From Elusimicrobiota bacterium (lineage in GTDB: Bacteria > Elusimicrobiota > UBA8919): a stretch of 64,000 nucleotides of DNA. The stretch lies in contig JAQUMH010000001.1 of assembly GCA_028718185.1 (NCBI GenBank), positions 591,186 through 655,185 of the forward strand, in the 5' to 3' direction. Under the pieces are notes generated by a model, which ran no database searches, was not told where the DNA came from, and saw nothing but the letters and a program-made list of their open reading frames with translations. Position numbers and translations under genes: made by a program. Below are positions 12,033-60,745 of the stretch, one piece after another (the stretch's first letter is position 1; each line of letters opens with the position of its first letter).

Positions 12033-12049
12033 GGTTCCTCCTCTAACAC

Positions 12050-12081
12050 AATGTTCTAATGTTCCAGTGTTCTTATGCTCT
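12050..12081. repeat. Short tandem repeat, 4 x 8 bp
   Basis: Four octamers, aatgttct / aatgttcc / agtgttct / tatgctct, lie just upstream of the CsgG/FlgO-like gene. Their unit sequence is nearly the same as in the tract inside the second riboswitch at 60412-60489, so the two tracts are related although 48 kb apart. Confidence 0.75.
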
Positions 12082-12118
12082 TTAATTTTCAATTATTTTG
12101 ACAGTACACAAACATCTT

Positions 12119-55540: not shown

Positions 55541-56497
55541 TCATTTGAACTTATAGTTAATGGAAAATATGTGAGTGTCGCTAAGCGGATCAAACGGCAG
55601 ATATGCATAATCAACTGTTATTAAATCAAAAACTATTCCAATCCCAAGCGTAATCCTTGAAGATGTCTCAAAAGACGAATCAAACTTATAACCACCCCTT
55701 AAATTTAGGATATCATAAATTAGTATTTCAGTACCGATATCAGCATAGGGTTTAGAGTCCCTCATTAATACAAAATCTGATGACATTAACAGGATTTTGC
55801 CGAGCGGGCGGTATGAAATCCCGGCAACGAATTTAGTAGGAAGGTTCTCTTTGACATCAATATATTTATGCCTTTTTAATTCTATATTCTGAATATTTAA
55901 TCCGGCAGTAAATATTTTGTATGAATTTATTTTCTTTTCATATATAGTACCTATATCAATTGCCAGAGCAACAGATTTTTTATCATCAATTTTGCTTTCA
56001 ATATACTTAGAACTTAACCCAAATGAAATGTTTTTATTTAACAAATATGAAATACCTATAACTGAAGATAAATCATGAGAACTGAACTCCTCTATTTGTG
56101 AAGTTTGAGTTTCCATTCCTTTAATCCCGCTTATGCCAAGATATTCGATACCAAATCCAAGTGAAAATCTGTTTCTTAACGGCATAATACAAGACACATT
56201 CTCAAATTTCATATCTTCAAGCCACTCGCTATGCGATAATGATACTTTCGTTTCATTCGTAAATCCCAAACCTGCAATATTATAAAAAACTGCTGTTGAA
56301 TCATCCGATACCGATGTAAAAGCTCCTGCCATTGCCGATGCTCTCGCTCCTTTTGGTATCAGAAGAAATTCTGAGGAAGTTTTACCTGCAGCAGAAAGAC
56401 CGCTATCCACAAGCAAGAAGCAAGAAGCAAGAAGCAAGATAGTTAATAACCTGTTGATATATAAACATCCCGGTATATGATAATTTATATTTTTCAT
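55541..56497 (-). CDS. PorV/PorQ-like outer-membrane protein
   Basis: The 318-residue protein has a signal peptide followed by the PorV/UPF0164 hallmark SSEFLLIPKGARASAMAGAF and DSTAVFYNIAGLGF, and alternating strands of a FadL-type 14-strand barrel ending in HIFSINYKFK. PorV carries substrates with T9SS sorting domains through the outer membrane. The hydrophobic core of its signal peptide (LLLASCFLLV) is encoded by four heptamers (56411-56438). Start overlaps the stop of the surface protein (ATGA). A cargo protein with a matching C-terminal domain is encoded immediately upstream, so they are probably client and carrier. Confidence 0.82.
   Translation of the reverse strand: MKNINYHIPGCLYINRLLTILLLASCFLLVDSGLSAAGKTSSEFLLIPKGARASAMAGAFTSVSDDSTAVFYNIAGLGFTNETKVSLSHSEWLEDMKFENVSCIMPLRNRFSLGFGIEYLGISGIKGMETQTSQIEEFSSHDLSSVIGISYLLNKNISFGLSSKYIESKIDDKKSVALAIDIGTIYEKKINSYKIFTAGLNIQNIELKRHKYIDVKENLPTKFVAGISYRPLGKILLMSSDFVLMRDSKPYADIGTEILIYDILNLRGGYKFDSSFETSSRITLGIGIVFDLITVDYAYLPFDPLSDTHIFSINYKFK
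56411..56438. repeat. 4 x 7 bp tandem repeat in the PorV-like signal peptide
   Basis: aagcaag repeated exactly four times. It encodes the leucine-rich hydrophobic core of the signal peptide, so it is being used as coding sequence. Confidence 0.9.
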
Positions 56498-59400
56498 CTT
56501 ATTACCGCCAATTTGCCTTTTGTTTTGCCTCTGCCGTTTTTATCTTCAATATAATAGATATAAACACCCGAAGCAACGGATGGACACCAATTGTAAGTTC
56601 CGTCTGTTACTGCTTCAAATTCTTCGGCAAGACGCCCGGCAACAGTATAGATTCTAATATTTACATTTTCCGTAAGCCCATCAAATGTAACATGTGTGTG
56701 CCCCCTAGACGGTCTATACGGATTAGGATAAACAACAACGCTGTTTAAATTTAATTTTGTAACTTTTGCAAAAACACCAAATTTCGTAAAGTGGTTCACT
56801 TTTGCCGAAATAGTCTTGGATAATTTTGATGATAGTAAAACTTTTTTATTATTTTTATTATCTGAATTATTCGGGTTGTTTGTTCCGCCGTTTTTTGAAT
56901 TATCCCTGCCGTCACCTTGCCCCGGATTAGTCCCGTCGCCAAGACCTGAACGGTTATCTACATTTTTCCATTCTTTCGCTTTTTCATCCAAATAACAAAT
57001 AGTAAGATCTTCTGTTTTTACATCTGTTCCGTCAACAACACCATTATTGTCATCATCGGGAAACGGTAATGAGATTGTTATTTCTTCATCAAACTGCGAT
57101 TGCCCATCCGTAAAACTAAATTCCCTGAAAACACCAACCGGTTCTATTGAACTATTCACTGCGGGAACCGGAACTTCAGTGGTTGCTAATTCCTTTATTT
57201 CCAATATACTTCCGTCTTCAACTACCCCTACCGGAACAATTGCACTGGTGCCATCAGCTATAATTACTTCTGTCTCAGCAGGTTCAGCGGTCGTAACAGA
57301 CGTAACAGGCTCAGTAGGAACAACAGGAGTAACAGGTTCAGTAGGTGTAGTGATTTTTTCTTGTTTTATATGCTGATCATTTGGATTTACCGATGGATTT
57401 CCGTCTTCTGAAATATCCCAATTGGAATCATCCACGTAAACAGTAATTTCAACCGGATTTTCTTCCGGCAAATTTAAAAGGTCATATGCAATTGTACGAA
57501 GCCTGTATTCACCATTTTTTAATCCGGAAAGATTCCAATATACGGCAAAAGGCGGCTTTTTATCAATCATGTCTATTTTTGTCCATTCCTCACCGCTATC
57601 TTTATACTGGAATAAAACGCCTGTTGTATTAGCTGTGGCGTCAGCAATAACAGTAACCGCATTACCTTTTAAACGCTTACCATCTTTCGGTATTCTTATG
57701 CTTGCACTTGCTTCACTTTTTTTATTGATATTTACAGTGACATAATTTATATTTTGTTCTTCAGTACCTTCAATATCAACTACCCTTACTGCAAACTTAT
57801 AAAGTCCTTCATCCAGCGATTGCGAAATCCATGATGATGCATCCGGCTCTGTTAGTTCTGCAACAGGGTTAGAATAATCAATAGTTCCATGTCCCTTATC
57901 CCAGTAAATATGATATTTTGCATAATACGACTTCTCGTAGTAACCCTCATTTTTATAGTAAATATTGTACAGATCCGTCATAGATGCTAATGAGGGTTCC
58001 CATTCTATTTTCGCTTTGCATTCTACCGTGGGATATCCTTTTAGATTTCTCACCTCTTCAGGATAAATATTAATTACTGAAAAAATTGCATATGTTCCTG
58101 TCCTGTCAACGAAAGTACTGCAATAATTTTGTGATATATTTGTAACTGTTTCAAAACCTCCAATCCATTTATGTTCAACTTCGTCATATCTCAGTATAAC
58201 AAGTGTCGTCTCTTTTATACTTGTACCGTCAAGATAACCATCGTTGTCTAAATCTGCATATTGTATCACAATAGGAAGTTTTTGTGATATTATTGTATCA
58301 CTGATTGTTTTAGTTACTCCACTACTTATAGGCTCCTCTGAAATAATTGTTCTTGGTTCAGAAACGCATATCATATTTGCCGGTTTTTCCAAAAGAATTT
58401 TTCCTGTTGTTGCAGCATCGGGTTGTGAAATAGAAATGTCTAAATTTGAAACCGCAATTTCTGGCGGTATTTTTAATATGGTTAAATATCTTTTTAAATG
58501 ACTTATTTTTTCTTCTTCAAATAGTGCAGATTCCTCTTCTCCAGACAATAAAGGTCCTGATGTTTTTATCAGAATCCGTGAAGCAGGAATATCTTTAATG
58601 TTAACATCGCTGTTTTCAATTTCACTTGTAATCGGAACAATTGCAAATTTATATTCACCTACCGAATTGAGTTCCGGAGTCGTAATATTTTTATTTTCAG
58701 AATCAATAATACCGATCGGAGACGAATAGTCGATTGCGCCAGTTCCCCTATCGTAGTAAACTCTGTAAAATACTTTATCTAAACCGGCAAAATTAGTAAT
58801 ACCTATTAAATAATTATTGTTCTGTACTGCATTTACAGAAATATTGTCTAATTCAGGTAATGGAATTTCCTTTATTGATATTGTCTTAATGTCTGTTGTA
58901 GTTCTATTGCCGGATGAATCAATTGCTTCTACGTAATACGTTAAAGAAGATGAATTGTTATATTCTGCGGGAATAACTCCTGACCACAAATCACCGTTAA
59001 TATTTATCATCTGCCAGGAATTTATGCCACTATGAAGAACAACAGAAGAAATTTTAGAATTATCATTAATATCAGCAACAACAGGTATGGAAAAGTATCT
59101 AAACTGACCATCCGCAACGGGTTGAAGTATTATAGAAGGGGCAATTATATCCGAGACAACATTAAAAGCATATTTTGATACTAAATTAAGTTTCTCTACC
59201 TGAGCTGTTATAACATAATGCCCTATGGAAAATGTTTTATTAATTTTTTCCGTGTAAGTTGTTTTACCCGGCTTTAAAGTACGCGGTGTTTCTGATAAAA
59301 TAAATGTTTTATCGTCAGAATAACGATATAGATTGTCAATTGTAAAATCAAATATTTTTGTTGAAGGGAAATCTAAAACTTGGGTTGAAGCTGAAGTGTT

Positions 59401-60342
59401 TTCAAGTACAATTTCAACATCTACCGGCTCGCCATATAGATATGTTGTTTTTAATGTTTTGGCTGAAAATTCAATTGCTGAAATAACAGAAAATGTTATG
59501 CCGGAACCTACTTCGCCTTCAATACCTGCAAAATCAACTGCCTGAGAAACTACATTATAGAAATGAGCCACTTTCCATATAGAAACCAGCATAGAAAATG
59601 AATTTGCATCTTCGGTTCTAACCCAAATCTCGCTGGTATTCCAACCTTGTCCATCCCAGTATGTATTATCTGTTATATCTTTAAGGCAAACTCTTGTAAA
59701 AGCAACACCGGACGCAGAATCGTTTGACTGACCATAAATCTTTGGTATATCTGAATAAACTTGTTTGTTTCCCGGAAATGAAATACCTGAATATGGCGGG
59801 CGCAAATCTATTATATAGGTTATACCATTATCGGGTGTTTCAATATTGCCCGAATTATCAGTTGCACGTGATTTTATATTATAGGTGAGGTTTTCTGAAA
59901 AGTAGGTTGAAAATTTATATGTCCATGAAGATGTTCCCTGACATACAAGCCAGATAGGATTTTCCCCGACCCAGCATTTTCCATCCCAGTATGTTTTTGA
60001 ATCGACCTGCTCAATTGCAATTTCCACTTTTTTTGTATCATAAGAGGCTGTCCCGTTTATCGGTATGTATTGGATACTATAGGCAGATTTATAAGGACTA
60101 AGAATTGTAGAAACAGCATAAATTTTTTGCGTACTAAATCCAAAAATTAAAAAACACAGGAAAACAAATTTTAAGAATGTTTCTTTATATTCTTCCGGAT
60201 CCAGGTCACTTTCACTTTTTATATTTATTAAACGTAAAAACCAATCTAAAACCGACACTCTATTGCCATTAAGTTTTATAGCAATAGGATATTGGTTCAA
60301 ACCGGTCTTTGCCTGTTTATTATAGTTCGGTAGTTCAGCCAT
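56494..60342 (-). CDS. Large surface protein with Ig-like domains and T9SS/FlgD-type C-terminal domain
   Basis: The 1282-residue protein has a hydrophobic segment at about residues 68-85 (FLKFVFLCFLIFGFSTQKIYA), preceded by an unusual 60-residue N-terminal extension. The body holds several Ig/fibronectin-like modules: two related 'TYWDGxxW' units at ~120-240, a PLDNISVNAV region, and VTVIADATANTTGVLFQYKDSG at ~930. A D-rich segment DDDNNGVVDGTDV resembles a calcium-binding dockerin-like loop. A Thr/Pro/Val-rich linker follows at ~1045. The last ~85 residues (VYPNPYRPSRGHTHVTF, YTVAGRLAEEF, ASGVYIYYIEDKNGRGKTKGKLAVIR) match FlgD/T9SS type A sorting domains. It is probably exported via PorV and exposed on the surface, under control of a riboswitch leader. 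Confidence 0.8.
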   Translation of the reverse strand: MAELPNYNKQAKTGLNQYPIAIKLNGNRVSVLDWFLRLINIKSESDLDPEEYKETFLKFVFLCFLIFGFSTQKIYAVSTILSPYKSAYSIQYIPINGTASYDTKKVEIAIEQVDSKTYWDGKCWVGENPIWLVCQGTSSWTYKFSTYFSENLTYNIKSRATDNSGNIETPDNGITYIIDLRPPYSGISFPGNKQVYSDIPKIYGQSNDSASGVAFTRVCLKDITDNTYWDGQGWNTSEIWVRTEDANSFSMLVSIWKVAHFYNVVSQAVDFAGIEGEVGSGITFSVISAIEFSAKTLKTTYLYGEPVDVEIVLENTSASTQVLDFPSTKIFDFTIDNLYRYSDDKTFILSETPRTLKPGKTTYTEKINKTFSIGHYVITAQVEKLNLVSKYAFNVVSDIIAPSIILQPVADGQFRYFSIPVVADINDNSKISSVVLHSGINSWQMININGDLWSGVIPAEYNNSSSLTYYVEAIDSSGNRTTTDIKTISIKEIPLPELDNISVNAVQNNNYLIGITNFAGLDKVFYRVYYDRGTGAIDYSSPIGIIDSENKNITTPELNSVGEYKFAIVPITSEIENSDVNIKDIPASRILIKTSGPLLSGEEESALFEEEKISHLKRYLTILKIPPEIAVSNLDISISQPDAATTGKILLEKPANMICVSEPRTIISEEPISSGVTKTISDTIISQKLPIVIQYADLDNDGYLDGTSIKETTLVILRYDEVEHKWIGGFETVTNISQNYCSTFVDRTGTYAIFSVINIYPEEVRNLKGYPTVECKAKIEWEPSLASMTDLYNIYYKNEGYYEKSYYAKYHIYWDKGHGTIDYSNPVAELTEPDASSWISQSLDEGLYKFAVRVVDIEGTEEQNINYVTVNINKKSEASASIRIPKDGKRLKGNAVTVIADATANTTGVLFQYKDSGEEWTKIDMIDKKPPFAVYWNLSGLKNGEYRLRTIAYDLLNLPEENPVEITVYVDDSNWDISEDGNPSVNPNDQHIKQEKITTPTEPVTPVVPTEPVTSVTTAEPAETEVIIADGTSAIVPVGVVEDGSILEIKELATTEVPVPAVNSSIEPVGVFREFSFTDGQSQFDEEITISLPFPDDDNNGVVDGTDVKTEDLTICYLDEKAKEWKNVDNRSGLGDGTNPGQGDGRDNSKNGGTNNPNNSDNKNNKKVLLSSKLSKTISAKVNHFTKFGVFAKVTKLNLNSVVVYPNPYRPSRGHTHVTFDGLTENVNIRIYTVAGRLAEEFEAVTDGTYNWCPSVASGVYIYYIEDKNGRGKTKGKLAVIR

Positions 60343-60354
60343 CTTGATTCAGTC

Positions 60355-60520
60355 CCTTTTATAAGGACCGCCTCTTAGATTCTGTAACTTTGCGCCCCCC
60401 CAGGAGAAACCGTTCTTATGTTCTAATGTTCTCACGTTCTCATGCTCTTTAGATTCTTAAGCACTCAAGAACTTACGAACATTAGAACTATCTCTGAGAG
60501 TTTGCCTTTTTCGACTTAAC
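60355..60520 (-). ncRNA. Second probable c-di-GMP-I (GEMM) riboswitch, with repeat insertion
   Basis: On the minus strand the conserved GGCAAA (60501-60506 region) is followed by CTCTCAGAGA, which pairs with TCTCCTGGGGG before the conserved GCGCAAAG (about 60388-60395). Together these form the P2 helix of GEMM-I. Inside the P2 loop an 80-nt octamer tract (60412-60489) is inserted, whose ends are complementary (GTTCTAATGTTC with GAACATTAGAAC), making an extra-long hairpin. The P3 side (GTTACAGAATCTAAGAGGCGG) is less canonical, so ligand binding is less certain than for the first copy. It ends about 13 bp before the start codon, so it could act on translation. Confidence 0.6.
60412..60489. repeat. 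Octamer repeat inside riboswitch P2
   Basis: gttcttat / gttctaat / gttctcac / gttctcat (four octamers), a middle of about four diverged units, and complementary units to cgaacatt / agaacta. The repeat is inserted into a structured RNA and extends an existing stem. Confidence 0.75.
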
Positions 60521-60551
60521 AGTCAATAAATAAAAAACCGAATTACCTTAT

Positions 60552-60597: not shown

Positions 60598-60654
60598 AGC
60601 TCGGCAACTCGGCAGACCTTAAAAATCTGGATTTGACTGTTTAATTACAGTTAA

Positions 60655-60745
60655 ACACGATAAAACGGCAGCCAGACAAACCTTAAAGGTTCCGTAGCTT
60701 TGCGCCTGCCGATTGTAACACCGGCATTTGCCTTTTTCGTTACTT
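60655..60745 (-). ncRNA. c-di-GMP-I (GEMM) riboswitch
   Basis: Reading the minus strand, AAAAAGGCAAA (60736-60726) opens the aptamer. P2 follows: TGCCGGT ... AATCGGCA, with a hexanucleotide loop. The strongly conserved GGCGCAAAGCTACGG comes next (60705-60691), then a P3 arm with AACCTTTAAGGTT and the closing GGCTGCCG (60673-60666). The order GGCAAA - stem - GCAAAGC - stem - GGNNGCCG is the GEMM-I consensus. It sits at the start of the 430-nt leader of the surface-protein/PorV operon, 12 bp after a consensus promoter. It would tie this operon to c-di-GMP. Confidence 0.8.

Follow-up and report, generated by a model that had tools for sequence, protein, structure and literature searches.

Of two tandem c-di-GMP-I riboswitch aptamers in the analysed stretch of 64,000 nucleotides (the window), the second carries in its P2 apical loop an array of octamer repeats from a family dispersed in an Elusimicrobiota genome, and on the predicted structures this array is probably a tolerated insertion, neutral or mildly tuning for the switch. 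The material consisted of metagenome-assembled genomes of Elusimicrobiota, with one species of the host's genus, and the structures were predicted; because the comparison spans that one species, the insertion event itself is unseen.

Both aptamers lie on the minus strand and exceed the gathering score of 35 of the Rfam covariance model RF01051: the first, with a short P2, at positions 60664-60742 (40.4 bits), and the second at 60326-60516 (36.8 bits), which bears out the sequence-only reading of the second copy as an aptamer. The second aptamer stays below the cut-off of the c-di-GMP-I-GGC model RF03167 (35.0 bits vs a gathering score of 59). Between the two, the sequence GGTAATTCGG followed by TTTTTT (60532-60547, minus strand) would form the 3' arm and U run of a putative terminator that is kept in the relatives. 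The 3' half of aptamer 1 recurs as GGTCTGCCGAGTTGCCGAGC (60600-60619, minus strand), and this second copy is complementary to the terminator arm; an arm located 3' of aptamer 1, GGTAATTCGGTTTTTT, is complementary to the 3' half of that aptamer. The motif survey recorded the same layout of doubled 3' halves, seen for aptamer 1 at 60600-60680 of the window, in about 30 of the 47 c-di-GMP-I-type aptamers of the family (L020-L049, L090-L119), the conserved half (..GGTTRCCGA) being repeated at a distance of about 30 to 140 nt with a variable hairpin in between, as though either copy might serve to close the aptamer. About 35 c-di-GMP-I-like matches were counted in the host genome (3.03 Mb), many of them at 22-32 bits, below the Rfam cut-off, with a common GAAAAGGCTGCTC...GGGCTAAGATAGT sequence, and several near contig ends.

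The downstream gene (56494-60342, minus strand) encodes a surface protein of 1282 aa with a T9SS type A sorting domain (TIGR04183), and is followed by a gene for a PorV/PorQ family protein (55541-56497, minus strand; NF033709, 176.7 bits). The AUG of the surface protein gene sits within the 3' strand of the P3 helix of aptamer 2, GAUGGCUGAACU (60332-60343, minus strand), which holds the start codon and codons 2 to 4, the aptamer's 3' strand encoding M-A-E-L-P. Five genomes of the family show the same coincidence of the aptamer 3' strand (window 60326-60343) with the coding start, MAELPK or close to it. Domains resembling those of the window's surface protein also occur in open frames that run to 17,000-19,000 codons (G000:C3, approximately 84800-116500; G004:C1, G042:C1 and G036:C6). 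From this arrangement we infer a division of labour, in which aptamer 1 would act on the terminator ahead of aptamer 2 and thus control transcription, while the binding of c-di-GMP to aptamer 2 would keep the AUG within P3/P1 and control translation.

In the Rfam match, the P2 apical loop of aptamer 2 holds about 90 nt, between the 5' strand of P2, CUCUCAGAGA (60491-60500), and its 3' strand, UCUCCUGGGGG (60397-60407), which is followed by the 5' strand of P3, AGUUACAGAAUC (60378-60389; all on the minus strand). The GTTCTnnn tract itself occupies 60412-60488 (minus strand). That its octamers fill the loop of P2 and have complementary ends, as had been claimed from the sequence, was confirmed by a period-8 array found by TRF at 60412-60448 (4.6 copies, 82% matches) and by a perfect 12-bp inverted repeat, in which GTTCTAATGTTC (60420-60431) is the exact reverse complement of GAACATTAGAAC (60477-60488), the two hairpin arms being GAACAUUAGAAC and GUUCUAAUGUUC, respectively, in the minus-strand RNA. 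The P2 arm of 111 nt has a folding energy of -37.9 kcal/mol against a shuffle mean of -22.9 (z -4.8), and 0 of the 200 shuffles were as good. The further claim that the tract prolongs P2 holds in so far as P2 is unbroken, but the predicted fold places an asymmetric internal loop of 2 nt against 12 nt between it and the tract, so that the latter is modelled as a self-contained hairpin mounted on an intact P2 rather than as part of a single continuous helix.

Folding with and without the insertion gave the aptamer as the minimum-energy fold in both cases, and with the tract present (60326-60530) the latter forms a separate hairpin on P2. The cost of forcing the aptamer fold was 0.57 kcal/mol with the tract and 0.29 kcal/mol when a GAAA loop replaced it. 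Composition-matched shuffled inserts gave a mean cost of 1.03, with 58% at or below the cost of the real tract; since they disturb the aptamer fold about as little, the tract appears harmless in the model and a need for its self-complementarity is unproven. For a longer transcript, reaching further into the gene, a competing fold with a rearranged P2 was predicted. The dispersed, self-complementary (GTTCTnnn)n octamer would thus have been inserted into, or have grown within, the P2 apical loop; because the tract folds back on itself, the base of P2 would be kept and the binding pocket left untouched, and the RNA of aptamer 2 should therefore still bind c-di-GMP.

The sequence-only reading had also raised the possibility that the tract disables the switch, and this is not supported by the state of the core, in which 16 of the 16 pairs picked by hand from the Rfam structure are standard, compared with 13 to 15 in the four relatives. 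Four positions of the six core P2 pairs are changed relative to these relatives, two of them on both sides, with the pairing kept, so that P2 has been rebuilt by compensatory changes; likewise, one P3 position with A-A in G006 and G007 has the restored pair U-A in the host. The motifs GGCAAA, GCAAAG and ACCGA are intact in the Rfam alignment, and the equivalents of G20, A47 and C92 (Vc2 numbering), which we take to be the ligand-contact bases, are present. The paired core, the compensatory changes in P2 and the intact contact bases argue for a working aptamer 2. A score barely over the threshold (36.8 vs 35), together with the lack of a second aptamer before the orthologous gene in G004 and G005, might be taken to mean that aptamer 2 is a dead relic, free to accumulate anything; however, the 16 intact core pairs with their compensatory changes, the kept contact bases and the conservation of the aptamer over the start codon in four relatives make such decay improbable.

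The tip of P2 in aptamer 2 carries no GNRA tetraloop, its place being taken by the octamer hairpin, and the same loop is absent from all five copies of aptamer 2 (the host and four relatives). The usual P2-P3 docking therefore cannot form in the standard way, and affinity or kinetics may differ in consequence. The missing loop does not bar membership in RF01051, because type II c-di-GMP aptamers lack the tetraloop receptor (PMC11218506), the docking of GNRA and receptor being a property of type I only.

Six further genomes of the family have an orthologous gene (53-55% identity), and aptamer 2 is kept over the start codon in four of them, from two genera (G001, G003, G006, G007); before the orthologous gene in G004 and G005 no second aptamer was found. 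The octamer tract is absent from aptamer 2 of the four relatives, which have in common a different P2 arm of 39-46 nt with GGUCNNNNGACC. P2 inserts are thus present in the relatives with another sequence, and the octamers cannot be read as a conserved P2, which was ruled out. Because of this different arm, an ancestral short P2 loop is also unproven. The relatives' arm is branched, with GGUC..GACC plus a hairpin and a conserved GGUCNNNNGACCCAA, and its occurrence in four relatives of two genera might indicate that an enlarged P2 is a family trait with a role of its own, for example in protein binding or aptamer-aptamer contact, the octamers having replaced the arm while the role was kept; the octamer hairpin, however, resembles that arm neither in sequence nor in shape, and we regard this as very unlikely.

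The claim that the same unit family recurs before an unrelated gene, at 12050-12081, was substantiated: a second tract lies at the start of another gene (12048-12083, plus strand), and the family is dispersed, with 93 occurrences of the unit pair GTTCTNNNGTTCT in the host genome against 17 of the reversed pattern. A chance origin of the tract and the family was ruled out, the reversed-pattern control and the shuffled folds falling far below the observed values. About 43 tracts or clusters, several of them inverted pairs, were found in the loci read. In G001 the same unit pair is also frequent; its counts exceed the control in G004, G005 and G006 and stay at the control level in G002, G003 and G007. 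Several tracts lie in frame within protein genes and others between genes: UvrB contains two in-frame tracts, both in regions with residues absent from the solved UvrBs, and CoaBC has four extra residues at its tract. The tract in AspRS was not counted as an insertion, as there is no length change relative to the solved structures. Octamers in frame in conserved genes were noted at L194, L175, L170 and L169, with the peptide EHKNTRT, the genes concerned being UvrB (twice), an antiporter-like protein (twice), CoaBC and the start of PurN. The RNase P RNA of the host genome is without a large insert (383 nt for a model of 367 positions). A 464-kb genome sample was used for the coding fraction and the counts. 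If about 30 intergenic tracts were placed at random, 0.04 to 0.17 of them would be expected in riboswitch loops, and one was observed; the excess over expectation is mild, and tolerance rather than targeting may be its cause.

It is possible that the tract tunes the switch. A stronger version of this, in which the tract is kept for removing the P2-P3 docking or for changing the folding speed, and slippage may give it different lengths in different strains, draws on the ability of tandem repeats to change length and on the enlarged, non-GNRA P2 of every aptamer-2 copy of the family, from which an undocked P2 may be preferred; against it, the tests made gave no sign of selection on the tract, the units are imperfect (82% matches) and octamer repeats also lie in many unrelated places, so that it is judged unlikely. 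A tolerated insertion, neutral or mildly tuning, is retained as the preferred reading, comparable to the dispersed repeats lodged in spare loops of other RNAs and proteins; the in-frame tracts of UvrB show that the family is tolerated there as well.

P2 at the same locus also holds repeats in other genera. In G001, P2 of aptamer 1 contains octamers whose family is dispersed in the same genome, and P2 of aptamer 1 in G004 contains TTTAACC heptamers, likewise of a dispersed family (137 matches in G004 vs 8 for the control). Dispersed repeats have thus come to occupy P2 at this locus recurrently, on three occasions in three genera. Repeat elements were also found in the P3 spacer of two other riboswitches of the host genome, L037 and L033, namely a GTCATTGCGAGC element (17 vs 1 control in the 464-kb sample) and an ATTACAC-type element, ATCTGTGTAATC (11 vs 3 control). 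Elements of the CCGAGCGTAGTCGAGGG type (G005, G002) and AGTAGTAAGTGG heptamers (G007) were not supported as dispersed repeats in aptamer loops, there being few copies. A more general and tentative proposal, to which we give a low but not negligible chance, is that several unrelated dispersed repeats regularly land or grow in the apical loops of the c-di-GMP riboswitches of this family, and that the aptamers thereby left undocked constitute a functional subclass with an output dependent on the repeat hairpin.

Should aptamer 2 still bind its ligand, it would be a natural experiment on the amount of change that P2 can bear while function is kept, and on whether the P2-P3 docking is dispensable; moreover, one octamer family has entered both proteins and a regulatory RNA within a single genome. 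The entry of a repeat into a regulatory RNA had been called unusual, which must be qualified, since other genera carry repeats in P2 of aptamer 1 at this locus and there are known cases of dispersed repeats within structured RNAs; the literature searches found no repeat inside a riboswitch aptamer, and nothing relevant on octamers in Elusimicrobia.

In its sequence and structure core, its tandem layout and its association with a cell-surface gene, the locus is like other c-di-GMP-I (GEMM-I, RF01051) riboswitches, and aptamer 2 differs from the usual form in that a 90-nt repeat hairpin replaces the P2 tetraloop and the start codon lies inside P3. Genome-dispersed short tandem repeats in a functional RNA are known from the STRR heptamers in the RNase P RNA of heterocystous cyanobacteria, where both the RNA and the unit are other than here. 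In the trnL group I intron of Nostoc, heptanucleotide repeats also build and lengthen the P6b stem-loop, where replacements have occurred repeatedly and independently (PMC4476775); this case is alike in that short tandem repeats with complementary copies lie in one variable stem-loop of a structured RNA, whereas its host RNA is a self-splicing intron rather than a ligand-sensing aptamer and its unit is 7 nt long. The Rickettsia palindromic elements, found in protein genes, tmRNA and M1 RNA, resemble the octamer family in being dispersed and hairpin-forming and in occurring both within structured RNAs and, in frame, within conserved proteins, and a riboswitch case is not described in the review (PMC2229807). 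However, they are units of 105-146 bp with terminal inverted repeats, whereas the octamer family is an 8-bp tandem unit in single or inverted arrays, without a fixed unit of 100-150 bp bounded by terminal inverted repeats, the unit number varying and inverted pairs occurring only in some. Repeats are already known from tmRNA, RNase P RNA and a group I intron, and the octamer tract adds a riboswitch aptamer to these hosts.
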